Shown here in pieces: positions 3,001-12,971 of a stretch of 28,509 nucleotides of DNA. Location: positions 1 through 28,509 of the IMG/VR virus record IMGVR_UViG_3300022602_000318, one strand, 5' to 3'. A program made the position numbers and the translations under genes. Under the pieces are notes generated by a model, which worked only from the letters and a program-made list of their open reading frames with translations, was not told the DNA's origin and did no database searches. Within the stretch, counting starts at the first letter, position 1; every line of letters starts with the position of its first letter. The DNA comes from a virus.

Positions 3001-3158
3001 CATATGTGCAAGCTGGAGACCCAAGTTTCCATGATATTTCTTATACTGTTTCAAATGGTGCTCCATACGATACAATTTTGGTTAAAATATCAATGACATC
3101 TTCTTCTAGTTCTTTAGTTCCACTTGTTAAAGATTTTAGAGTAATTTCTTGTGCATAA
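3..3158 (+). CDS. Large virion structural protein (baseplate/fibre-type), 5' end truncated by window
   Basis: The reading frame is open from base 3 and runs into the window edge, so the true start lies upstream. The residues before the first possible start (TTG at 24) read DWFDTTKL and look like normal coding sequence. About 1050 residues are visible, rich in Thr, Ser, Asn and Val, with predicted beta structure and no membrane segment. Near residue 357 (counted from base 24) is GWYDPLAESF, followed by a GGAFLTSIDIYFASKD-type stretch. I know this combination from large virion proteins of T4-like marine phages. Two small beta modules are visible: a GDVIKGAISNATAVI / NETITGSISNA unit near bases 610-795 and a GTGTAFTTQLVVGS unit near 1800-1960. 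Position ahead of fibre genes in a late operon supports a baseplate or fibre role. The exact role is unknown. Confidence 0.75.
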   Translation, partial: DWFDTTKLPDIVNNVMGNYNTILAIAQKSGVVGENGMGTVWGAWQTVWTGQPVVQPGSLVTLNQSNSSAATLNALGGNWHSAGNWSLRTLTYETTATQINQVSTGIQTSIQSTTDYQTVGTNIVSTAVIPYIRSRNVLVQVIGLKPQTRIYPYFDGVSVDAYCTPSTNMVYTLASGSFDDSTNAGALGSVAARQIAGDPAVCLNSGDVIKGAISNATAVIINKYTDYTTNALHLELANVIGTFQTNETITGSISNAVGAVVSVTTPSNTNLVTNKLGQLNFLFDIPNNSSLSFRTGSRIFTLLDTNTFTGQFTTKATGTYTASGTLQTEQTTINAVQNATVVSEQVTQNQTIYSTGTKVVSDTGWYDPLAESFYISSPGGAFLTSIDIYFASKDQNVPVTLQLRNMVNGTPGSLILPFSEVTLNPDQVNISSNDVIIKDGSSWPTFDTATRFTFPTPVYVQDATEYCFVLKSDSNGYNVWVSNIGDIIPGTDTVITDQPYAGVMFLSQNASTWTPDQNRDIKFTINRAVFNTSVVGNVEFTNDVVPYDNLEKNPFQTNVGSNTVRVWHYNHGMPVGSTVTIDASQLDQDITGTITTSATSATVTGTGTAFTTQLVVGSCLYDDNMTLIGQVASIASNTSLTLTGNASEALTGYQPVYINPINGIPASQIVGNHTISNVLHDAYTITTSSTATVAGYQGGSGWRATKNIQFDVINPTVQIQTFPQCTTNFSAKTTSGKSVNGGETPYITNSVFTPCLNGSNNTYFAPQMIASQVNETTNLSGNKSLTFSATMSTTVDSVSPVIDTTRASLICVSNAINQPTESNTDLAALDIIAAFSGSTGAFTLTGNTITSTNYAVRAALATITPGSYITITNATNIANDITVMVTGYTDTSPGLFASTSTGTGTLTVNGTFTTESTSPATVSLRQLFVDETGPTGSSVISKYVTQPIKLAAASTYTKVLISANIPVGAAAQVYYKTCLGDSNQLKTEDYVLMTPDANIPYVQAGDPSFHDISYTVSNGAPYDTILVKISMTSSSSSLVPLVKDFRVISCA

Positions 3159-3396
3159 TGCGAAATATTTAAAAGTCCAGGGTTATGAGGGTCTCGTAAG
3201 AGACACCTCTACTGGAGCTATTATAAATACAAATAGAACAGAATTAGATAATTACCTCCGCCAAAAGGAGATAGTTGAACAAAGGGATCTTCAGATTTCT
3301 AAGAATACTGAAGACATAAATAATATAAAGAATGATCTTCACGAAATTAAATCGTTGATTTATCAACTTTTGAACACTACTAAGGGTAACAAATGA
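3151..3396 (+). CDS. Small virion-cluster protein with C-terminal coiled coil
   Basis: This 81-residue protein starts with GTG and overlaps the 3' end of the upstream gene by 8 bases. The ATG at 3158 is out of frame and stops after four codons, so GTG is the best start. The N-terminal part contains VQGYEGLVRDTSTGAIINTN, a pattern I associate with small hypothetical proteins in tail clusters of T4-like marine phages. Residues about 45-75 form a heptad-like stretch (IVEQRDLQISKNTEDINNIK and onward) that predicts a coiled coil, which would suit an oligomerising partner or chaperone of the next gene. It ends in an ATGA overlap with the following fibre gene, so the two are probably translationally coupled. 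The function is unknown. Confidence 0.65.
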   Translation: MHNAKYLKVQGYEGLVRDTSTGAIINTNRTELDNYLRQKEIVEQRDLQISKNTEDINNIKNDLHEIKSLIYQLLNTTKGNK

Positions 3397-4613
3397 CAAC
3401 ATATACAGTAGGCGCACCAACTTTAGTTTTAAGAGGCTCTAAGGGAAGCCCTCTTTTAAACTCTGAAGTTGATGCCAACTTTACAAATTTAAGCAATGCA
3501 GTACAAACTTCACTATTGGCAAGCACTTATACTGCAGCAGATGTTCTTGCAAAATTAAACTCTGTAACTGCATATAACCAATCTTCTGGTTTAAATGCAG
3601 ATACAATGACTTGGAATGGTGGTAATAGGGTTGCTGGAAGTGCGCAGGTAAATAATACGATTGTTGCTCGTGATGGTAACGGTGCTTTTACTGCAACAAC
3701 TATTAACGCTACTACTTTTAATGGCACTTTTGCTGGTACTGCTGCGATTACTGGTGGTACTATTACCCTTGGTACTCCACTTGCTATTACTTCTGGTGGT
3801 ACTGGCGCAGCCAATGCTGCCTCTGCTAGAACAAACTTAGGTCTAGCAATCGGAACAAACGTAGAAGCATGGAGCGCAAACTTAGATGCATTATCTGGCG
3901 TAACTTCTGCTGCTGATACATTAGCATATTTTACTGGTTCAGGAACTGCCTCTACTACTTCATTACCTTCATACGGTAGAAGTTTGATTGGATCTTCAAG
4001 TTCTTCTGCTGCTCAAGCAACCCTTGGATTAACTATTGGTTCTCAAGTTCAGGCATATTCATCTAACCTTGCGGCTCTTTCTGGTACAGGTACTGGTATT
4101 CAAGTTATTACAGGTACTGGTACTGCAGCGGCAAGAACAATTACTTCAGATGGTAGTATTACAATCACTAATGCCAATGGCGCTGGTGGTAATATTAACC
4201 TTGCTGTTACTTCTTATGTTTCTTCCGTACAAGGTCAAACTGGAGCTGTTACTGTTTCAGTTCCTGTTACTGCTGTTCAGGGTCAAACTGGTTCAGTAAC
4301 TGTTACTAATATTTCTGGTTCTGCTGGCTACGCTTCTAATGCTGGTTACGCTTCTAATTCTGGTGGCGGTTGGCCAGGAGCTTTATCTCAATTCCATAAC
4401 AACTTAGGTAACTATGGTGGATGGGTTCCTCATGGTAACAAAGGTATGGGGCAACGAGCTTCTACTTGGACTAGCGCTGCTGGTGCATACAACCACAATC
4501 ACCAACCTGGAGGTCACCACGCATTTAATTGTCATAATAATATGCATATTGATACTGGACAAGGTTTAGATGCATATCACCACTTTATTAACTGCAGAAA
4601 TTGTAACTGCTAA
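3393..4613 (+). CDS. Tail-fibre-like protein with His/Cys-rich C-terminal tip
   Basis: This 406-residue protein overlaps the preceding gene by ATGA and has an AAGGG ribosome site at 3382. The N-terminus (LVLRGSKGSPLLNSEVDANF) is typical of phage fibre proteins that attach to a baseplate. The middle is low-complexity Gly/Thr/Ala/Ser repeat sequence. It includes SGGTGAANAASARTNLGLAIG and a second TNLGL-like unit (AQATLGLTIGSQVQAYSSNL), both common in trimeric fibre shafts. The last 40 residues are very different: His at 368, 370, 375, 376, 381, 385, 396 and 397, and Cys at 380, 401, 404 and 406. In T4 the gp37 fibre tip binds iron through HxH motifs, so metal binding at this tip is plausible but unproven. 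It is likely a host-contact fibre. No gp38-type adhesin or assembly chaperone is recognised beside it. Confidence 0.75.
   Translation: MTTYTVGAPTLVLRGSKGSPLLNSEVDANFTNLSNAVQTSLLASTYTAADVLAKLNSVTAYNQSSGLNADTMTWNGGNRVAGSAQVNNTIVARDGNGAFTATTINATTFNGTFAGTAAITGGTITLGTPLAITSGGTGAANAASARTNLGLAIGTNVEAWSANLDALSGVTSAADTLAYFTGSGTASTTSLPSYGRSLIGSSSSSAAQATLGLTIGSQVQAYSSNLAALSGTGTGIQVITGTGTAAARTITSDGSITITNANGAGGNINLAVTSYVSSVQGQTGAVTVSVPVTAVQGQTGSVTVTNISGSAGYASNAGYASNSGGGWPGALSQFHNNLGNYGGWVPHGNKGMGQRASTWTSAAGAYNHNHQPGGHHAFNCHNNMHIDTGQGLDAYHHFINCRNCNC
4485..4613 (+). other. His/Cys-rich C-terminal tip of the fibre protein
   Basis: This encodes residues 365-406 of the fibre, with eight His and four Cys in 39 residues, including HNH at 368-370, HH pairs at 375 and 396, and a terminal CRNCNC. 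The rest of the protein has almost none of these residues. The pattern suggests a metal-binding or disulfide-locked tip. A substrate site for a modifying enzyme is another possibility. Confidence 0.5.
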
Positions 4614-4625
4614 AGGTAAACAAAA

Positions 4626-5588
4626 ATGTCAATAAAATATGTAACTTCTCTTGTTGATGCAAAGAGACTAGCACGTCATGGATTTGTGAGTAAGCAATGG
4701 GAACAGAGTTTTCTTGATGCTGGTTTTTTAGCAGCCCAAGAACTTCTACCAATAAATCAAAGATCTATTGTTGACAATAAGTCAGTCTCAGAAAATGTCA
4801 ATTTTGAATATAAATTTGATTATCCAAATATTTCTGATCAAACAACAATTAGAGTAACATTTACAAACACAACAGAAAATAAAGTTGCATTTACGTTTGT
4901 TCTAGAATTTACTCCTACTTTGTTGAGCACATTTACTTCTCAAACTGTATATGTTTTAAAACCAGAATATTACATAAATTTAGACGGAAATATAACAAAT
5001 AGTTTTGGTGTGCAACTGCCAGGAGCTCCTATTTCTGAAGAAGTGAATGATTCTGACTTTATAAATTTTTCTAATTATACACTTACAGATAAAGTTGAAC
5101 GCAAACATTTTACTAGCCCACATATAATAAAAATTTTTTCAACAAAAGATAATCCTACTTTACAAGATTTAATTTTTATTGTATATAAACCAGTGGCACC
5201 TGGAACAAATGTACAACATAGTCCTTTAGATCCAAGTATTGACACAAGTAAATGGGGGACACATTCTATTACTGTAACTGGAACTGCAGTTGATGAAAAT
5301 TCTCATATAAAAGACATTTCTATTCTAAAAGATTTGTTATTTCCAATTACAACTACATCTACTACATCAAATGGTTTAATAACAGTAACTGTAAATACTG
5401 ATCCTAGCATTTCTGAAGTTTATTTAATTTCTAAAGTTGGATTTATTGCTAAAAACGTAGTCACATTAACTAATGGAACTGGATCTTTTAACATCTCAAC
5501 TACTGGTTTAGTTACTGGCGATCAAGTTAATATTAAAATCGGATATAAATATTGGAGTAACGTAACTACGTTCACACAAACTATCTAA
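4626..5588 (+). CDS. Unknown 320-residue beta-rich protein of the virion/accessory cluster
   Basis: It starts at ATG 4626 behind an AAAGG site that overlaps the stop of the fibre gene. I do not recognise a family. Residues 1-45 look helical (VDAKRLARHGFVSKQWEQSF). From about residue 60 onward the sequence alternates Thr/Val/Ile/Asn strands, with a C-terminal segment near 245-320 resembling an Ig-like or fibre beta domain (LTNGTGSFNISTTGLVTGDQ). There is no signal peptide, membrane helix or cysteine. Codon use is more AT-rich than in the neighbouring fibre gene. Its 3' end contains an exact TATAAATA late-promoter octamer at 5544 that would serve the next gene. It could be a virion accessory protein, or a partner or substrate of the radical SAM enzyme encoded 20 bases downstream. 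Confidence 0.6.
   Translation: MSIKYVTSLVDAKRLARHGFVSKQWEQSFLDAGFLAAQELLPINQRSIVDNKSVSENVNFEYKFDYPNISDQTTIRVTFTNTTENKVAFTFVLEFTPTLLSTFTSQTVYVLKPEYYINLDGNITNSFGVQLPGAPISEEVNDSDFINFSNYTLTDKVERKHFTSPHIIKIFSTKDNPTLQDLIFIVYKPVAPGTNVQHSPLDPSIDTSKWGTHSITVTGTAVDENSHIKDISILKDLLFPITTTSTTSNGLITVTVNTDPSISEVYLISKVGFIAKNVVTLTNGTGSFNISTTGLVTGDQVNIKIGYKYWSNVTTFTQTI
5544..5551 (+). promoter_or_regulatory. T4-type late promoter candidate for the radical SAM gene
   Basis: An exact TATAAATA, the T4 late promoter consensus, ends 57 bases before the radical SAM start codon. It lies inside the end of the upstream coding sequence, so it could be chance in AT-rich DNA. Confidence 0.4.
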
Positions 5589-5608
5589 TTTAATTAACTT
5601 GGAATGAT

Positions 5609-7000
5609 ATGGCGAAATTTGTTATAACTGTAAAACACCCTGAAAAAGATGAACTTCGAAAAGTAGTATATGATAGTTCCGTTAGCACCTTAATTTGGGA
5701 AAACGGAACTCCTGTATTACAAGATGTTAAAGTACAAGAAGATGTACAACAACCAGCCAAAATCCAACATGGAAAGAAAGACCTAAAGACTGTAAAAATA
5801 CAGTTGGGTCTTTCATGCAATTTTGAATGTGATTATTGCAATCAAAGATTCGTCCCACATGCTGATCAAACAAACCCAGACGACGTTCAACCATTTGTTG
5901 ATAATATGCACAATTGGTTCGAAGGTGGAAAAGATGGTCTTGGTTCAGGAACTAAAATTGAATTTTGGGGTGGGGAGCCACTAGTTTATTGGAAAACATT
6001 AAAACCACTGGCAGAAGCACTGCGAGTAAAATATCCAAAAGCGATTTTCGGAATTATTACTAATGGTAGTTTACTCGATTCTGAGAAAAACGAATGGCTA
6101 GAAAATTTAGGATTTGGAGTTTCAGTTTCTCATGATGGTCCAGGTCAATTTGTTCGTGGTCCAGATCCATTAACTGATGCACAATCTAAAGCAGGAATTA
6201 TAGATTTATACAAACGTCTGGCTCCAAAAGGTAGAATGACGTTTAATTCTATGATAAACTCTAAGAATATTAGTCGCGCAGATATCGAAGAATATTTTGT
6301 GAATTTTGTTAAAGATAATATTGGCGAAGAGTATCTAAACTATTTAATCATAGGGGAAGGTGGATTCGTTGATGCTTATGATGAAGGTGGTCTTGCTAAC
6401 TCGTTGTTAGATGGCGAAGAAGATGTTAAATATAGAAACCTTGCCCTAAACGAAATACGACTCGGTAAAGTTAAAAGGTTTTCTATAATTGAAGACAAAT
6501 ACAAAGATTTTATAGTATCTTTAATGAATGGAACAAGAATTGAATCTGTTCCACAAAAATGTGGTATGGATAAATCCGATGATATCGCACTTGATTTAAA
6601 TGGAAATGTTCTTACATGCCAAAACGTAAGTGCAGTTTCTGTTAATCCAGCTGGTGTTTCTCATCATATTGGACATGTATCTGATTTGTCTGCTGTTGAA
6701 TTAAAAACATCTACTCACTGGAGCGACAGAGAAGAATGTCCAAAATGCCCAGTCGTTCATATATGTAAAGGTGCTTGTATGTTTTTATCTGGGGATCTAT
6801 GGGAAGCATCATGCAATAATGCATTTAGCGATAATATCCTTATTTTCACTTTGGCAATTGAAGAAGCCACAGGTGGATGGATTCCTGGATATATCGATGG
6901 TCCATTAAGAGAAGACAGAAAAGATGTGTACTGGTGGGTAAATGGTAAGCCAGAAAACACCAGAAAAGCGAAAAAAATTATTCCAATTATGGCGGTGTAA
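5609..7000 (+). CDS. Radical SAM/SPASM protein (peptide- or protein-maturase type)
   Basis: This is a 463-residue enzyme. C70, C74 and C77 form the CxxxCxxC radical SAM cluster (LSCNFECDYCNQRF), and FWGGEP at 119-124 is the GGE SAM-binding motif. The C-terminal SPASM domain is complete: C318, NGNVLTC ending at C337, then C377-x2-C380-x5-C386-x3-C390, and C402. This predicts two auxiliary 4Fe-4S clusters. Members of this family (anSME, QhpD, PqqE, RiPP maturases) mostly modify peptides or proteins, though some act on small molecules. Residues 1-57 precede the barrel and may bind a substrate. No key residue is missing. It starts at ATG 5609 after GGA, 20 bases behind an unknown gene, and is followed 1 base later by a 92-residue protein. 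The final 40 residues (Trp-rich, then basic) are of unknown function. The family is certain; the substrate is unknown. Confidence 0.92.
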   Translation: MAKFVITVKHPEKDELRKVVYDSSVSTLIWENGTPVLQDVKVQEDVQQPAKIQHGKKDLKTVKIQLGLSCNFECDYCNQRFVPHADQTNPDDVQPFVDNMHNWFEGGKDGLGSGTKIEFWGGEPLVYWKTLKPLAEALRVKYPKAIFGIITNGSLLDSEKNEWLENLGFGVSVSHDGPGQFVRGPDPLTDAQSKAGIIDLYKRLAPKGRMTFNSMINSKNISRADIEEYFVNFVKDNIGEEYLNYLIIGEGGFVDAYDEGGLANSLLDGEEDVKYRNLALNEIRLGKVKRFSIIEDKYKDFIVSLMNGTRIESVPQKCGMDKSDDIALDLNGNVLTCQNVSAVSVNPAGVSHHIGHVSDLSAVELKTSTHWSDREECPKCPVVHICKGACMFLSGDLWEASCNNAFSDNILIFTLAIEEATGGWIPGYIDGPLREDRKDVYWWVNGKPENTRKAKKIIPIMAV

Positions 7001-7001
7001 T

Positions 7002-7280
7002 ATGAGTTTTATAAATGGATTTTTAGTAGAAATAAACCAGTTTCCAAGATTTGAGGATTTGTATACAATAAAAGATTACTTCTTTTACGACTCAAATACG
7101 AAAGAATATGGCTACAGGGATACAGTTATCCCAAAAGAGCAGATTATAAATAATGAATTGATGACAGAAGAAATTCTTGCAAATCTTATAAATAATAAGA
7201 TACCTGTTATGAAACGAATTATTGACATAAATAAACAAGAAGAGACATGGGTTTTTAACCTTAAAGAGGAACAAAAATGA
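7002..7280 (+). CDS. Unknown 92-residue protein between the radical SAM and TRAP genes
   Basis: I take ATG 7002 as the start: it is 1 base after the upstream stop and gives MSFINGFLVEINQF. An in-frame longer reading would begin inside the radical SAM gene. The stop overlaps the next start as ATGA. The protein has no cysteine, signal peptide or membrane helix. It is rich in Asn, Ile, Lys, Glu and aromatic residues and ends in ETWVFNLKEEQK. It is clearly more AT-rich than the TRAP gene that follows. Tight coupling on both sides suggests a shared task with its neighbours, for example a substrate, a recognition/carrier protein or an adaptor. No RRE/PqqD fold is recognisable by eye, and function cannot be assigned. 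Confidence 0.6.
   Translation: MSFINGFLVEINQFPRFEDLYTIKDYFFYDSNTKEYGYRDTVIPKEQIINNELMTEEILANLINNKIPVMKRIIDINKQEETWVFNLKEEQK
7145..7233 (+). promoter_or_regulatory. Cluster of three NATAAATA late-promoter-like octamers ahead of the TRAP gene
   Basis: TATAAATA occurs at 7145-7152 and again at 7197-7204, and CATAAATA at 7226-7233, all on the coding strand within the 92-residue gene. The last two end 73 and 44 bases before the TRAP start. The local sequence is very AT-rich, so some or all may be chance. Confidence 0.3.
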
Positions 7281-8224
7281 CAACTAAGCATGTAAAATGG
7301 GTTATTGCCCACGAACCAATCGGTTTGTTTTTGAAAGTAGCAGAGAGATTTGCTCAGGAAGTTAATGAAAAAACTAATGGTGCATTTGACATCGAAGTTC
7401 TTTCCTTAACAGATTATACAAACAAATACAATGGTGGTCAAAAGATTACTAAAGATGCACTAATGAAGTTGGTTGATACTGGCGCAATTGAAATGAGCCA
7501 CATCTATACAACTTGGTTAGCAGATTATAACAAAGATCTGCATGCTCTAGATCTACCTTTCTTATTCCGCGATCATGCTCATGCTGATGCAGTTTTAGAA
7601 GGACAGGTTGGTTTAGATCTATTGGCTGGTGTTGCTGCACATTCTAACACCCACGCTATGTCTTTCACTTACTCTGGTGGCTACCGTGTTGTTCCAGCTA
7701 ACTTCAAAGCTGACACTGTAGAAGCATGGCAAGGTCGTACTGTTCGTACCAGCCGTTCTCCAGTTGCTGTTGAAACCTTCAAGTTGCTTGGTGCTGAACC
7801 AAAAGAACACATCGCTTTAGAAGAAATGAACGCAGCTGCTGATGCTGGTTTGATTGAAGCTGGTGAATCTACTTATGTTCGTGTTTTCCCATTGGATCAA
7901 CACAAGAGTTTCAAAGTTGTTAACGATACAGCGCACAGTTTGTTCTTGACTTCTATCATTGTTAACCAAGACTTCTTTAATCAGTTCGATGCTGAAACTC
8001 AAGAGATCTTATCTACTGCTGCATTTAATGCTGCTCGTCAAGAACGTCGCGAGTCTGTTGCTGATATTCCAAACATCTTGGCTCAATGTGAAGCTGAGGG
8101 TGTTGAAGTTGTTAAGATGACTGCTGAACAAGAAGCACGTTTCAAAGAAGTTACTGCTCCAGTTTACGCTAAGTTTGCTGACTACTTCACTCCAGGTCTA
8201 GTTGAGAAAATTCAACTACATTAA
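7277..8224 (+). CDS. TRAP transporter substrate-binding protein, DctP family, lacking a signal peptide
   Basis: This 315-residue protein matches the mature part of DctP-type periplasmic binding proteins nearly end to end. KWVIAHEP (7-14) is the first strand. ALDLPFLFRDHAHADAVLEG (90-109) is the family's DLPFLF block. WQGRTVRTSRSPVAVETF (151-168) holds R157, matching the arginine that binds the substrate carboxylate. NAAADAGLIEAGESTY (185-200) corresponds to the second lobe motif. The normal N-terminal signal peptide is absent: the protein begins MTTKHVKWVIAHEP, so it should stay in the cytoplasm or enter the virion. No TRAP membrane (DctQ/DctM) genes are present. Codon use is less AT-rich than its neighbours, with many AAC, TTC, CGT and GGT codons, as in the sheath gene. 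The AGAGG site at 7265 is strong. The family is near certain; the role in a phage is unknown. Confidence 0.9.
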   Translation: MTTKHVKWVIAHEPIGLFLKVAERFAQEVNEKTNGAFDIEVLSLTDYTNKYNGGQKITKDALMKLVDTGAIEMSHIYTTWLADYNKDLHALDLPFLFRDHAHADAVLEGQVGLDLLAGVAAHSNTHAMSFTYSGGYRVVPANFKADTVEAWQGRTVRTSRSPVAVETFKLLGAEPKEHIALEEMNAAADAGLIEAGESTYVRVFPLDQHKSFKVVNDTAHSLFLTSIIVNQDFFNQFDAETQEILSTAAFNAARQERRESVADIPNILAQCEAEGVEVVKMTAEQEARFKEVTAPVYAKFADYFTPGLVEKIQLH

Positions 8225-8233
8225 TTTTAATAG

Positions 8234-8241
8234 TATAAATA
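8234..8241 (+). promoter_or_regulatory. T4-type late promoter candidate overlapping a terminator
   Basis: An exact TATAAATA sits in the intergenic space, two bases before the terminator stem. T4 late transcripts start a few bases downstream of this octamer, so RNA starting here would lack part of the 5' stem and could escape termination, feeding the PP-loop gene at 8281. Confidence 0.5.
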
Positions 8242-8242
8242 T

Positions 8243-8270
8243 AGGGAGCTTCGGCTCCCTTTTTATTTTT
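8243..8270 (+). terminator. Rho-independent terminator after the TRAP gene
   Basis: A perfect 7-bp stem AGGGAGC (8243-8249) pairs with GCTCCCT (8254-8260) around a TTCG tetraloop, followed by TTTTATTTTT. This is the clearest terminator in the window and closes the radical SAM-92aa-TRAP unit. Confidence 0.92.
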
Positions 8271-8280
8271 GAGGATTATT

Positions 8281-9372
8281 ATGAATCAAAACATTTTTAA
8301 AGAACTACAAAATTCAAAATTTATAGATCAAAGCAAAGAACGAATATTATATTACGACAAATCAAATGTTTCCAATTTAGCGAAACATGACCATCGTAAA
8401 ATATTTAATTTCCTAAGCCCGAATGGATCATACGAACTATTTAACATGTATGAGAAATTTGGTCTGAATAAACATAACGCAGTATATGATAGAAGTGGGC
8501 AAATACCACACTATTTAAATATGGCAGAAGGTTTGCATCCAATGCCAGGATTTATCCCAAATTACAATAGTTCGTTTTATGAAATTGCAGAAAAAAGATC
8601 TAAAGAATTATTGTCGTTAAACAAACCAATCAAGGTTATGTGGTCAGGTGGATTAGACAGCACCTTTATTTTGTTTATGTTAAGCGAATATGCTACTGAC
8701 AAAGATCAAGTCCAGGTCTATGGAACATATAATTCTATAATTGAATCTGGTGATATGTTTGATCGAGTTATTAAAAATAAATTTAAACACGAGATAACAG
8801 CAGGAAAACGAAACGATCTAAAATATAATGATGACTCGATTTACGTAAGCGGTATGTGCGGAAACCAACTGTTTGGACCAACAGATGATATGTTCGCTAA
8901 TGGAGATCACGCTCTGTTCCACCATACTCTTGGAACTCCAGAAACGATTTATGAATCTTACGAAAAACATATAGATCCAGAATTGATACAGTTTTTGATG
9001 CCTGCAATTAAAGCAAGTGCAAGAAAAATTGAGACAGTTGCTGATTTAAGATGGTACTGTATATTCAATTTAGATTGGTATACTGCAATATACGAGCATA
9101 AAATCCTTCTTGACAAAGATCGTGCTGATAAAATACATGGTTTCTTTGATTCAAATGAATTTCAAGAATGGGCTGTAAACACAAAAGATCCATTTACAAA
9201 AGTCAAGGGTGATGCTAATACACATAGATGGCAGATGAGAGAAATCCTCAGCGACAAATTTGGTGAGATTGAATATGCGAAGAATAAACCAAAGAAAATT
9301 TCCAATTTTGGTATAACAGAACCAGATTGGATCTTCCTTTTGTCAGATTACAGGAATGTTTATATCGGGTAA
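8281..9372 (+). CDS. Asparagine-synthetase-like PP-loop ATPase (AANH superfamily) without glutaminase domain
   Basis: This 363-residue protein starts at ATG 8281, 6 bases after GAGG at 8271. An upstream in-frame TTG at 8269 has no ribosome site. The PP-loop SGGLDST is at 122-128, where ATP is bound and a carboxylate is adenylated. SGMCGNQLFG (190-199) corresponds to the SGxGGDELFG block of AsnB, with the acidic DE replaced by NQ. DLRWYCIFNLDW (255-266) resembles the following AsnB helix. The N-terminal 110 residues are not an Ntn glutaminase: there is no Cys2. It therefore must use ammonia, another nucleophile, or an internal amine. Related folds include AsnB, lasso-peptide cyclase, beta-lactam synthetase and sugar amidotransferases such as WbpG. 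It is more AT-rich than the TRAP gene. The family is fairly sure; the reaction is unknown. Confidence 0.8.
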   Translation: MNQNIFKELQNSKFIDQSKERILYYDKSNVSNLAKHDHRKIFNFLSPNGSYELFNMYEKFGLNKHNAVYDRSGQIPHYLNMAEGLHPMPGFIPNYNSSFYEIAEKRSKELLSLNKPIKVMWSGGLDSTFILFMLSEYATDKDQVQVYGTYNSIIESGDMFDRVIKNKFKHEITAGKRNDLKYNDDSIYVSGMCGNQLFGPTDDMFANGDHALFHHTLGTPETIYESYEKHIDPELIQFLMPAIKASARKIETVADLRWYCIFNLDWYTAIYEHKILLDKDRADKIHGFFDSNEFQEWAVNTKDPFTKVKGDANTHRWQMREILSDKFGEIEYAKNKPKKISNFGITEPDWIFLLSDYRNVYIG

Positions 9373-9391
9373 TCCACTAAATTGCATATCT

Positions 9392-9399
9392 TATAAATA
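9392..9399 (+). promoter_or_regulatory. T4-type late promoter candidate
   Basis: An exact TATAAATA lies in the 60-base gap between the PP-loop gene and the gene at 9433, 33 bases before its start. Intergenic position and exact match make this one of the better candidates. Confidence 0.55.
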
Positions 9400-9432
9400 A
9401 AGAGGTATAAGAATAATGTTTGGGATTAAAGA

Positions 9433-9792
9433 ATGGCGACAATCAGTAACCTTTTTGTTGATGCAGGTAGCGATTACAGCAACATAATTACTGTTGCTGG
9501 AAGCAATGGCCAGCCATTAAATTTAACTGGATATACTGTTGCATCAGAGATGAGAAAGTCATATCTCTCAAAAACAGCATATCCATTTACTGCCACAATT
9601 TATAGTGCATCAAGCGGTGAAATTCGCCTCCAACTTGCTGGAGGTGTCTCAGCACAAATGTGGCCAGGACGTTACCAATATGATGTTGAAATTACTTCTG
9701 CTACTGGAGCAAGAACCAGAGTAGTAGAAGGAATTGTCACAGTTACACCTGAAATTACCCAAGTTGGCGTTTCAGGTGTTCCATCATTGTAA
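9433..9792 (+). CDS. Small beta-sandwich virion protein (BppU N-terminal-like)
   Basis: This 119-residue protein begins MATISNLFVDAGSDYSNIIT. The layout is a DxGsDys start, an NLTGYTVASEMRKS strand, a GEIRLQLAG strand, then GRYQYDVEITSATGARTRVV and a closing VTVTPEI strand. This resembles the N-terminal domain of phage baseplate upper proteins and small structural proteins found beside fibres in T4-like marine phages. There is no signal peptide or cysteine. It starts after GGGATTAAAGA, a weak ribosome site. It is followed 9 bases later by a 75-residue protein and then a long fibre, so it probably forms part of a fibre or baseplate attachment. Assignment is by resemblance only. Confidence 0.65.
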   Translation: MATISNLFVDAGSDYSNIITVAGSNGQPLNLTGYTVASEMRKSYLSKTAYPFTATIYSASSGEIRLQLAGGVSAQMWPGRYQYDVEITSATGARTRVVEGIVTVTPEITQVGVSGVPSL

Positions 9793-9801
9793 GGATTATT
9801 G

Positions 9802-10029
9802 ATGGCAACTAATAATCTAATCGTAACAGTACAACAAGATAATCTAACTACAGTATCATCGAATTTGAACAATCCAATTTATCTTGAATCGTTAAGTAAT
9901 GTTGGTAACGTTGATACAACTACAAATGGCGTTACGCAAGGATCAATTTTAATATACCAAACAGCAACAAGTAAATGGACAGCTTCTACTACCCTGGACG
10001 CCCAGGATATGGAAGGTGGCGAATTTTAA
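9802..10029 (+). CDS. Small structural-cluster protein, unknown
   Basis: This 75-residue protein uses ATG 9802 (MATNNLIVTVQQDNLT), with AAGGA at 9791 overlapping the previous stop. A TTG one codon upstream is less likely. Asn and Thr are abundant. The middle, LESLSNVGNVDTTTNGVTQG, and the following QGSILIYQTATSKWTAS resemble linker motifs of phage fibre proteins, where a NGSILVYN...KW pattern is common. It ends in the acidic DAQDMEGGEF. Position between a small beta protein and a long fibre, with a 14-base gap to the latter, suggests a fibre-attachment or virion decoration role. I cannot name a family. Confidence 0.6.
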   Translation: MATNNLIVTVQQDNLTTVSSNLNNPIYLESLSNVGNVDTTTNGVTQGSILIYQTATSKWTASTTLDAQDMEGGEF

Positions 10030-10043
10030 TCGGAGAATAAAAG

Positions 10044-12971
10044 ATGGCATCTACAATAAGAATTAAAAGATCATCAGTAAACGGTAATCCAAGTACCCTT
10101 GCTGCTGGTGAATTAGCCTACTCATCATACAGCGGTGCTGGTGGTAATAGACTTTACATCGGTACTGGTACAGAGACTGCAGGTAATGCTGCTAACCATG
10201 CTGTTATCGGTGGTACATACTATACTGGTTTAATCGATGCCTCTACTGCTGGCACATTAACAACTAACGCATCGTCAATTCCAGTTCTTTCTGCAACTGG
10301 TACTATTGATCAGTGGTTGGTTGGTAACACAAAATTAACTGGCAATACATTAAGCACAACCAACACAAACGGTAACTTAATTCTTGCACCAAACGGTACT
10401 GGTCTAGTTCAAATTTCTGGTAACTGGACTTTACCTTCTGCTGTTGGTACAAGCGGATACGTATTAACTACTAACGGATCTGGAACTTCTAGCTGGCAAC
10501 CTTCTGCTGCTACTCTAAGTTTAGCAGCTGGTGGTGGTACTACTGGTTCTATCGCTCTATTAACACAAACATTGACAATTGCTGGTGGTAATGGTATTAC
10601 TACTTCAGTATCTGGTCAAACTGTTACAATTTCTTCTATCGGCGCTGGTGGTTATACATCTACTGCTACTGGTGGAACAACAACCACTTTAACAGCATCT
10701 AGTTCTGCTAATCAGTTCTTTACTGGTACAACTACTCAGACTGTTAAATTACCTGATACATCAACATTAACTCTTGGTCAAGAGTTTATTATTACTAACA
10801 ACAGTACTGGTGCGTTGGCAATTCAGACTTCTGCTGGTGGTTCTATTAACTCAATCCCAGGTGGTTCACAAGCTACATTTACTGTTGCTTCTACTGCTGC
10901 TCAAACTTGGATTGCAGAGTTTACTGGTAATAACACTGTAACAGGTACTGGTGCCGCTGTTCTTGCTAACAGCCCAGCATTAACTTCTCCATCTTTCAGT
11001 ACTATTGTTAACAGCGGTACATTAACGCTACCAACATCAACTGATACATTAGTTGGTCGTGCCACTACTGATACATTTACTAATAAGACTTTTGATACTG
11101 CTGGTACTGGTAACGTATTAAAGATTAGTGGTAATCAAATAACATCTTACACTGGTTCTGGTGCAGTTGTTATGTTGTCTAATACACCAACTGTTACTGG
11201 TGCTATTAATTTTAACGGATCTGGTTCTGGTCAAACATCTCTTGCAGCTTCTGCGACTGCTTCTGGTACTTTAACACTACCAGCTACAACTGATACATTA
11301 GTTGGTAAAGCTACAACTGATACATTTACTAACAAGACAATTGATACAGCTGCAACTGGTAACGTATTAAAGATTAACGGTAACCAAGTAAACGCATATA
11401 CTGGTACTGGTTCTACTGTTGTTCTTTCTGCTGCTCCAACAATTACTGGTCACCCAACAATTGAAGGTGTTACTTCTACTGGTGCAACTGGTACTGGTAA
11501 CTTGGTATTCAGCAATACACCAACTCTAGTAACTCCAGTATTGGGTTCTGCTACTGCTACTAGTATTGTAGCATCAAATGGATTCCTTTCTACTAGCACA
11601 TATGGTGGAACATACTCTGACGGTATCGTTATTGATTATACTACTGGTCTTGGTCGTATTTCAGTTGGTTCTGGTGATGGTATTTCTTTATATAACAACA
11701 CAGATACAACTCGCCAAGCGATTTTCGCAGTTGGTTCTACTGGTGCAGTAACACTACTTGGTGGTTCTATTACTGGTACTACTGCAGTTACTATCACTGC
11801 TGGTGGCACAAACTCTAACATTAACTTGGTTCCAACTGGAACTGGTACTGTTGACCATGGTGGTGCTCGTCTAACATCTGTCGGCACACCAACTCAATCT
11901 ACTGATGCTGCTACTAAAGGATATGTTGATGGTCTAAAATCTGGTCTTGATGTCAAGTATCCAGTTCGTTTAGCTACAACTGGAACAAACTTATCAGCAG
12001 CAGCTTCTGGATCGCAAGCTGGTAAAACACTTACTAACAATAGCACACAGGTAGTGTTGACTATCGACTCTGTTCCTGTAGTTAATGGTGATCGTATCCT
12101 TGTTAAAGATCAAACAACCCAAGCTGATAACGGTATCTATGTTGTTACTAGCAATGGTTCTGCTTCAACTAACTGGGTATTAACTCGATCAACTGACTTT
12201 GATGGTACAACATCTAACAACTACAATGGTACTGTTACTGCTGGTGCTTTCGTATTCGTTGAACAAGGTACAATTAACGCAAACAATGGTTACGTTGTAA
12301 CTGAAGCAGTAAACGATGTACCAACTTTAGTTGTTGATACTAACCCAATCGTATTTGTTCAGTTCTCTGGTGCTGGTGAAATTACTGCTGGTTCTGGTTT
12401 ATCTAAGTCTGGTAATACTTTATCAGTAAACGTAGATAATACAACATTATCAATTAACGCTGGTAACCTGCAAATCAAATCAACATATGTTGGTCAGAAT
12501 AGCATTACTACTCTTGGTACAGTTACTACTGGTACTTGGCAGGCTGGTGTTATTGGTGGAACATACGGTGGTACTGGTGTTAACAACGGATCTAATACTA
12601 TCACTCTTGGTGGTAATATTTCTACTGCTGGTTCTTTCACTACTACTGGCGCATACTCTTTAGGTTTAACAGTAACTGGTGCTACTAGCGTAACTCTACC
12701 AACATCTGGTACTCTTGCTACTTTAAGTAACTCTGAAACATTAAGCAATAAGACTATTACTTCTTCTAGTTTCAGTGGTACTACTGTTTCTGCTTCTGGT
12801 CTAGTAACTTTTACTAATGCTACTGATGCATCTTCTACTAGTTCTGCTGGTGTTGTAATGTCTGGTGGTCTTGGTGTTGCTGGTCAAATTTATGTTGGCA
12901 CTAACATTACTGGTTCTGGCGCAACAACTAGCACATTAAGTGGTTTTACCATTGATGGTGGAACTTACTAA
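10044..12971 (+). CDS. Long tail-fibre-like adhesin, 975 residues, with internal repeats
   Basis: It starts behind CGGAG. The N-terminus IRIKRSSVNGNPSTLAAGEL followed by LYIGTG is the beta-prism type of domain seen at the start of phage fibres and of the Mtd adhesin. The shaft is Gly/Thr/Ser-rich. An 83-residue unit containing TLTLPTSTDTLVGRATTDTF, NKTFDTAGTGNVLKISGNQ and a PTVTG ending occurs twice in tandem (bases about 11011 and 11260). A degenerate third form (TLPTSGTLATLSNSETLSNK) lies near 12700. Between them, about residues 615-780, is a less repetitive domain (TKGYVDGLKSGLDVKYPVRL; VNGDRILVKDQTTQADNGIY), a module I know from many tail fibres. It ends TIDGGTY, then a terminator. No signal peptide or membrane helix is seen. 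Most likely it is a trimeric fibre. Confidence 0.8.
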   Translation: MASTIRIKRSSVNGNPSTLAAGELAYSSYSGAGGNRLYIGTGTETAGNAANHAVIGGTYYTGLIDASTAGTLTTNASSIPVLSATGTIDQWLVGNTKLTGNTLSTTNTNGNLILAPNGTGLVQISGNWTLPSAVGTSGYVLTTNGSGTSSWQPSAATLSLAAGGGTTGSIALLTQTLTIAGGNGITTSVSGQTVTISSIGAGGYTSTATGGTTTTLTASSSANQFFTGTTTQTVKLPDTSTLTLGQEFIITNNSTGALAIQTSAGGSINSIPGGSQATFTVASTAAQTWIAEFTGNNTVTGTGAAVLANSPALTSPSFSTIVNSGTLTLPTSTDTLVGRATTDTFTNKTFDTAGTGNVLKISGNQITSYTGSGAVVMLSNTPTVTGAINFNGSGSGQTSLAASATASGTLTLPATTDTLVGKATTDTFTNKTIDTAATGNVLKINGNQVNAYTGTGSTVVLSAAPTITGHPTIEGVTSTGATGTGNLVFSNTPTLVTPVLGSATATSIVASNGFLSTSTYGGTYSDGIVIDYTTGLGRISVGSGDGISLYNNTDTTRQAIFAVGSTGAVTLLGGSITGTTAVTITAGGTNSNINLVPTGTGTVDHGGARLTSVGTPTQSTDAATKGYVDGLKSGLDVKYPVRLATTGTNLSAAASGSQAGKTLTNNSTQVVLTIDSVPVVNGDRILVKDQTTQADNGIYVVTSNGSASTNWVLTRSTDFDGTTSNNYNGTVTAGAFVFVEQGTINANNGYVVTEAVNDVPTLVVDTNPIVFVQFSGAGEITAGSGLSKSGNTLSVNVDNTTLSINAGNLQIKSTYVGQNSITTLGTVTTGTWQAGVIGGTYGGTGVNNGSNTITLGGNISTAGSFTTTGAYSLGLTVTGATSVTLPTSGTLATLSNSETLSNKTITSSSFSGTTVSASGLVTFTNATDASSTSSAGVVMSGGLGVAGQIYVGTNITGSGATTSTLSGFTIDGGTY
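11011..11460 (+). repeat. Two tandem copies of an 83-codon fibre repeat
   Basis: The DNA beginning near 11011 recurs about 249 bases later near 11260. Shared blocks are ACTGATACATTAGTTGGT and TGGTAACGTATTAAAGATTA. The copies differ mostly at scattered positions and by conservative substitutions, which indicates an old in-frame duplication. Confidence 0.75.

Follow-up and report, generated by a model that had tools for sequence, protein, structure and literature searches.

The DNA analysed here (IMG/VR record IMGVR_UViG_3300022602_000318, positions 1 to 28,509; "the window"), a fragment 28.5 kb in length, stems from a T4-like phage. It contains a core that consists of a tail fibre with a C-terminal Asn/Cys tail, an immunoglobulin-like (Ig-like) protein (4626-5588) and a radical S-adenosylmethionine (radical SAM)/SPASM enzyme (5609-7000). 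With a probability of about 0.8, as judged from sequence comparison, this core is a maturation system for the phage's own adhesin and resembles the systems that produce ribosomally synthesised and post-translationally modified peptides (RiPPs). The fibre would be made with a C-terminal (X-Cys)n tail, usually (Asn-Cys)n; the SPASM enzyme encoded downstream would modify this tail before or during virion assembly, and the product would be a modified tip for host contact. All features of the window mentioned below are on the plus strand.

The key feature is the C-terminus of the fibre protein (406 residues, 3393-4613), just outside the region 4626-9372 that a preliminary description of this DNA had covered. 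The protein, the probable substrate, has PHROG tail-fibre matches, is flanked by structural genes and ends with ...HHFINCRNCNC-stop. The tail itself, NCRNCNC directly before the stop codon (4590-4610, read from the sequence), is the probable modification site; relatives have NCNCNC. At most loci of the enzyme family, the fibre gene lies about 0.8-1 kb upstream and its product has an alternating Asn-Cys C-terminus, e.g., ...NCNCNC-stop. The fibre of the nearest relative (L002; radical SAM enzyme 83% identical) also ends with NCRNCNC. Fibre homologues that share the N-terminus carry either the Asn/Cys tail or other domains at their C-termini. Neighbouring NC units share both codons in 27%, as compared to 28% expected for independent codons. 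The codons of the repeat are, thus, mixed as if independent, which implies that selection acts on the peptide, and slippage of a DNA repeat is rejected as the source of the tails.

The coupling of tail and enzyme is near-obligate and specific across many lineages and carriers. Starting from the enzyme, an Asn/Cys tail was found upstream in 131 of 136 distinct loci with usable upstream DNA (128 by a strict pattern; the window, L002 and L262 by reading). Starting from the tail, viral contigs were scanned, blind to the enzyme, for DNA encoding NCNCNC-stop, which yielded at least 120 stretches. A real tail was defined as the end of an open reading frame of 80 residues or more with at least 4 kb of downstream DNA. 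Among the matches listed, 36 of 40 distinct real tails had an enzyme of the family within 5 kb on the same strand, as did 0 of 12 short-frame matches. In the loci from bacterial genomes, Asn/Cys C-termini occur in 59 of 1142 upstream reading frames, in 0 of 1483 downstream ones and in 2 of 3388 on the opposite strand. The short-frame matches, the downstream frames and the opposite strand reject chance or composition as the cause of the coupling. In a third approach, loci were anchored on the gene at the left border of the cassette, phrog_473. Wherever enough DNA was available, tail and enzyme were both present or both missing. Two exceptions are apparent ones: L320 is the contig of L002 with its NCRNCNC, and the contig of L340 ends before the position that the enzyme occupies in L339. 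Where related fibres have no Cys tail (Pelagibacter phage Mosig, L374, L386), the enzyme is missing, too. Apart from this, other proteins ending with NCNCNC, in families of 204, 186-191 and 194 residues, were seen with no radical SAM gene nearby (L130, L160, L178, L193, L211; L127, L173, L185; L167).

The enzyme (463 residues, 5609-7000) belongs to the radical SAM/SPASM maturases: it has the CxxxCxxC motif and a seven-Cys SPASM domain, and a Cys-containing precursor is encoded nearby in the 131 of 136 loci mentioned. PF04055 scores above its cut-off, the SPASM model TIGR04085 reaches 31.0 bits with a cut-off of 27, and phrog_1802 matches with 1.3e-67. C70, C74 and C77 of the motif and the SPASM cysteines 318, 337, 377, 380, 386, 390 and 402 are invariant across 15 diverse members. 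The nearest NCBIfam models are peptide or protein maturases, e.g., those for geopeptide, PapB and QhpD; models of cyclophane maturases (YhhB, FxsB) and of the anaerobic sulfatase maturase match as well. A known equivalog was sought and rejected; among the best 25 of 45 matches, the general SPASM domain was the only one to reach its cut-off. Of the chains with solved structures, 8vpo, 5wgg and anaerobic sulfatase maturases match best in sequence. Inspection of the alignment by eye gave no sign of a typical RiPP recognition domain in about 50 residues at the N-terminus.

That the Asn/Cys tail is the substrate of this enzyme appears very probable from the genome comparisons. The nature of the product is more delicate. 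By analogy, we tentatively consider, at nearly even odds, thioether cross-links of Cys to neighbouring residues, of the ranthionine or sactionine type. Such links are favoured by the peptide and protein maturases as nearest models in combination with Cys at every second position. In PapB the thioether links span 0-6 intervening residues, to Asp or Glu (PMC9413430), which makes the alternating pattern chemically reasonable. A different chemistry within the same system is a serious, if minority, possibility: epimerisation of alternate residues, carbon-carbon (cyclophane) links or conversion of Cys to formylglycine. The strict every-second-residue pattern would suit epimerisation, and the matches to YhhB, FxsB and the anaerobic sulfatase maturase, as which the copy of Achromobacter phage JWF is annotated, would fit the others. 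The tails, however, display no invariant aromatic partner. They also lack, by reading, the sulfatase motif CxPxR, and the residue that stays constant in them is Cys, which commonly donates the thioether; these points are not decisive. Whatever the chemistry, the modified tail rather probably serves receptor contact or the stability of the tip.

The gene at 4626-5588 is to be grouped with the radical SAM gene. Its product of 320 residues has a variable N-terminal part and a conserved C-terminal Ig-like domain, as seen in a 25-row alignment. AlphaFold predicted it with a pTM (predicted template modelling score) of 0.83; the C-terminal domain resembles the Ig folds of intimin and of carbohydrate-binding modules, and seven uncharacterised viral proteins match with E below 0.001. 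Probably it is a virion protein co-assembled as a partner, or a substrate carrier. A homologue was detected near the enzyme in 45 of 48 phage loci and 37 of 47 bacterial-genome loci. It is, thus, linked to the enzyme almost as tightly as the tail is, and together with the His-rich character of the tail region in the window this lends some colour to another view: the tail would be an unmodified metal-binding or disulfide-bonded tip, the enzyme would have a different target (the Ig-like protein, some other protein of the virion or a small molecule), and the genes would form one host-recognition cassette. We consider this unlikely. Several loci have the enzyme and the tail but no detectable Ig-like gene (e.g., L261-L263, L294, L296, L302), as opposed to a tail in 131 of 136, and in one type of carrier, the separate proteins of 117-135 residues described below, the end of the tail gene may be 12-19 bases away from the start of the radical SAM gene.

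Some observations speak against a maturation system of the proposed kind. Asn-Cys thioethers are proposed from family resemblance, and the acceptors of PapB are Asp and Glu. The tail of the window is short. The tail scan was a sample of the viral contigs, and among the matches listed four distinct tails on unrelated-looking proteins (L167, L173, L178, L211) had no enzyme of the family. Conversely, a tail of this form is missing from five enzyme loci (L248, L281, L290, L308, L310). Finally, the co-occurrence of tail and enzyme could reflect their residence in one shared host-recognition island.

The system is found in freshwater phages, in probable prophages of Beta- and Alphaproteobacteria and in two isolated phages, Achromobacter JWF (KP202971) and 2-1 (OQ974181). 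When bacterial and archaeal genomes were scanned once with the alignment of the enzyme, 79 loci were obtained. They are mostly from Burkholderiales (Limnohabitans, Rhodoferax, Polynucleobacter, Burkholderia) and Alphaproteobacteria (Magnetospirillum, Thalassobacter, Rhodospirillaceae). Four of them were inspected gene by gene (L288, L263, L291, L303); there the neighbours of the enzyme are, by reading, fibre-like or other phage tail-like reading frames, and the bacterial loci are, therefore, probably prophages. Where enough upstream DNA was available in bacterial genomes, a strict Asn/Cys tail was present in 53 of 60 loci and an Ig-like gene in 47 of 60.

The carriers of the tail differ. It may be fused to the C-terminus of a fibre, as in the window. 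It may reside on separate Cys/Asn-rich proteins of 117-135 residues (L050, L336, L380, L128), which in some phages directly follow a tail-less fibre that ends, by reading, like an S74-like self-chaperone. It may also reside on proteins of roughly 85-110 residues, often in tandem (L041, L162, L184). In the fourth type the tail directly precedes a Hint domain, as in JWF (...NCNCDCNCNCSC-FPAGT...) and in L234, L261, L294, L296, L302, L305 and L307, i.e., in eight loci. On a tree of 112 radical SAM proteins, a quick one with some open forks, the distribution of carrier types requires at least 20 changes, that of the Hint type three. The enzyme family, thus, stays constant and the tail is kept while the carrier switches. 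The Hint domain recurs exactly after the repeat, where otherwise a stop codon is found, which suggests a requirement for the repeat to end up as the true C-terminus of its protein.

Genes resembling 2-oxoglutarate oxygenases occur near the enzyme in 25 of 47 bacterial-genome loci and 8 of 48 phage loci, hinting at further chemistry on the tail. In L041 (6160-7998), L030 (6207-8001) and L288 (9186-9833), such 2-oxoglutarate/Fe(II) oxygenase-like genes are placed between the Cys-tailed proteins and the radical SAM gene. On balance, we slightly favour the view that the system is widespread and gives the adhesins of tailed phages and prophages a chemically altered tip: a dedicated radical SAM enzyme, often together with nearby 2-oxoglutarate oxygenases, would turn (Asn-Cys)n into a multiply cross-linked peptide for receptor contact, with Hint domains recurrently exposing or activating its C-terminus. 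A divergent cousin with another repeat was seen on a contig of Parasutterella muris (L310, about 7000-11200). It comprises two adjacent radical SAM-like genes (326 and 436 residues), an Ig-like gene and three small proteins in which every third to fifth residue is Cys (CTYCAYCTHC; NCTTVNCTTVNC).

Downstream of the core, the window contains an orphan gene, a DctP gene and an AsnB-like gene, which are an optional second module, separate from the core. The orphan (92 residues, 7002-7280) has no known domain; its 27 other distinct homologues, mostly encoded just upstream of DctP, mark it as a real gene. The DctP-like TRAP solute-binding protein (7277-8224) is a member of the DctP fold family (PF03480, 9.5e-43, 147 bits with a cut-off of 23.4) and has solved relatives. 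By reading, it has no signal peptide and starts with MTTKHVKWVIAHEP at the mature domain; a cognate DctQ/DctM permease is missing among the annotated reading frames of the window. Next comes an intrinsic terminator with the stem AGGGAGCTTCGGCTCCCT (8243-8260) and the T run TTTTTATTTTT. The AsnB-like PP-loop ATP pyrophosphatase (8281-9372) could start at TTG 8269 (longest frame 8269-9372), ATG 8281 being the likelier start. Its SGGxDS motif is invariant in the alignment. AlphaFold predicted it with a pTM of 0.90, and the fold matches asparagine, carbapenam and beta-lactam synthetases with TM-scores of 0.3-0.4. PF00733 stays below its cut-off (13.3 versus 21 bits), and neither another domain nor an N-terminal glutaminase was detected. 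Nitrile synthetase and LarE were rejected as its family; their similarity by sequence is a local one at the PP-loop, and the fold favours AsnB-like proteins.

The preliminary description had seen the radical SAM/SPASM, orphan, DctP and PP-loop genes as one cassette that may mature a virion or adhesin protein or make a small ligand for the binding protein to carry. The genes are real, as confirmed by open reading frame and family searches; the 1-base gap and the ATGA overlap that make the first three nearly continuous are as described, and the terminator is convincing. Their unity did not hold. Loci were fetched with the radical SAM gene (44), the DctP gene (53) and the PP-loop gene (18). In 30 of 48 complete phage loci the core comes with both DctP and PP-loop genes, the orphan being recognised in 19 of these 30; 17 of the 48 lack both. 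In bacterial-genome loci, DctP was found in 0 of 47 and the PP-loop gene in 2 of 47. Phages in which such a radical SAM gene was not found, some of their records being fragments, also have similar DctP genes (67-82% identical), located close to other AsnB-like PP-loop genes. One pathway of the four genes is, therefore, disfavoured: fibre tail, Ig-like protein and enzyme travel as a core without the rest, and the rest is optional and found elsewhere. AsnB-like folds are known to activate carboxylates, and proteins of the DctP type to bind them, so that the four gene products might make or carry a small carboxylate ligand or join it to the fibre tip. Despite the frequent company of the two genes in phages, their distribution and the missing signal peptide of DctP render this very unlikely, and the small ligand found no direct support. 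What survives of the earlier proposal is the maturation of an adhesin; genome association strongly supports it for the SPASM enzyme, with the Asn/Cys tail of the fibre as the likely substrate.

The DctP of the window is 93-97% identical to those of L046-L049 and L057, whose radical SAM enzymes are just 60-69% identical, which suggests that DctP was recently exchanged between phages. Signal-less DctP genes near AsnB-like PP-loop genes were also seen on phage contigs without the radical SAM gene (L059, L061, L074, L075, L080, L086, L095); they possibly represent a separate DctP/PP-loop system. Several of these loci also hold binding-protein-like genes with signal peptides. L084 (5058-7940) encodes an apparently whole TRAP transporter (DctQ-like and DctM-like by reading, DctP with signal peptide by Pfam), adjoined by a second DctP without signal peptide. 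In L090 (2349-5337) and L097, IscU-like and IscA-like genes of iron-sulfur assembly, by reading, directly follow the orphan-DctP-PP-loop module.

The cassette does lie, as described earlier, inside a block of T4-like structural genes. Reading frame and family searches revealed fibre proteins, neck proteins, terminase, tail sheath, tail tube and portal in the flanks. Its slot is bordered by two conserved T4-like structural genes: phrog_473 on the left (3151-3396; PHROG match, present in cyanophages, outside the system) and a gene resembling phrog_1084 or L-shaped fibre assembly on the right (9433-9792; PHROG match). In cyanophage DSL-LC02 the two adjoin each other and form an empty site; in Mosig, L374 and L386 the slot holds the fibre without Cys tail. 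No match of the enzyme family was obtained anywhere in the records of these four or of three more cyanophages. The slot is a known variable host-recognition island between VrlC and the neck genes (PMC7029224). That unrelated accessory genes had merely gathered in this hypervariable island, which would also agree with the moves of DctP between contexts, is highly improbable and for the core already disfavoured, since unrelated phages, and bacterial-genome loci whose genes are ordered differently, show the same link between tail and enzyme. Another cluster within the same island was seen in Mosig (L314, 12319-18228), where genes annotated as MoaA-like radical SAM enzyme, carbamoyltransferase, methyltransferase and nitroreductase lie downstream of the fibre slot.

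If the proposed maturation holds true, the tips by which phages bind receptors would not in every case be plain protein: a large set of phages and prophages would be equipped with peptides modified by an enzyme where the host is contacted. This would affect the understanding of adsorption and host range and their prediction from sequence, provide a testable function for many unexplained phage radical SAM genes and add a new enzyme-substrate pair for peptide cross-linking. To our knowledge, it would be the first RiPP-type chemistry as part of a virus particle. Testing is feasible now with the two isolated Achromobacter phages, JWF and 2-1. The literature, with most subscription papers and preprints outside the scope of the search, contained no account of this system. 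The enzyme class is known; what is new, as far as could be seen, is its link with the tail of a phage adhesin, the (Asn-Cys)n type of precursor and the range.

Among known systems, QhpD (TIGR03906) is likewise a SPASM enzyme, and it modifies a protein, not a small natural product. The window enzyme matches it with 7.6e-12 (45 versus 453 bits); the substrate of QhpD, however, is an enzyme subunit, that proposed here a virion adhesin. The anaerobic sulfatase maturase (PDB 4k36, 4k37) matches over most of the window enzyme in profile comparison, yet with 31.6 bits for TIGR03942 and a cut-off of 349 the window enzyme is not a member, and no sulfatase was seen in the inspected neighbourhoods. The AsnB-type synthetases for asparagine, carbapenam and beta-lactam have the PP-loop and the overall fold in common with the protein at 8281-9372, which differs by lacking the glutaminase domain, by its low TM-scores and by a PF00733 score below cut-off. 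The host recognition cluster of pelagi- and cyanomyophages occupies the same genomic place, and the clusters of two pelagimyophages differ by radical SAM-related cassettes (PMC7029224); that work proposes no substrate, tail or mechanism, and Mosig lacks this enzyme family. A further analogue is PapB with its precursor PapA (NF047865; PMC9413430), which also combines a radical SAM/SPASM enzyme with a precursor of regularly spaced cysteines. PapB is the second best NCBIfam match (1.4e-13), yet it scores 50.8 bits with a cut-off of 340, and ranthipeptide precursors have Cys-X3-Asp/Glu instead of alternating X-Cys; the system works like PapB without being a member. Classical RiPPs have a leader peptide that a protease removes, and their product is exported; here the core is the C-terminus of a virion-type protein, in the eight Hint loci followed by that domain.

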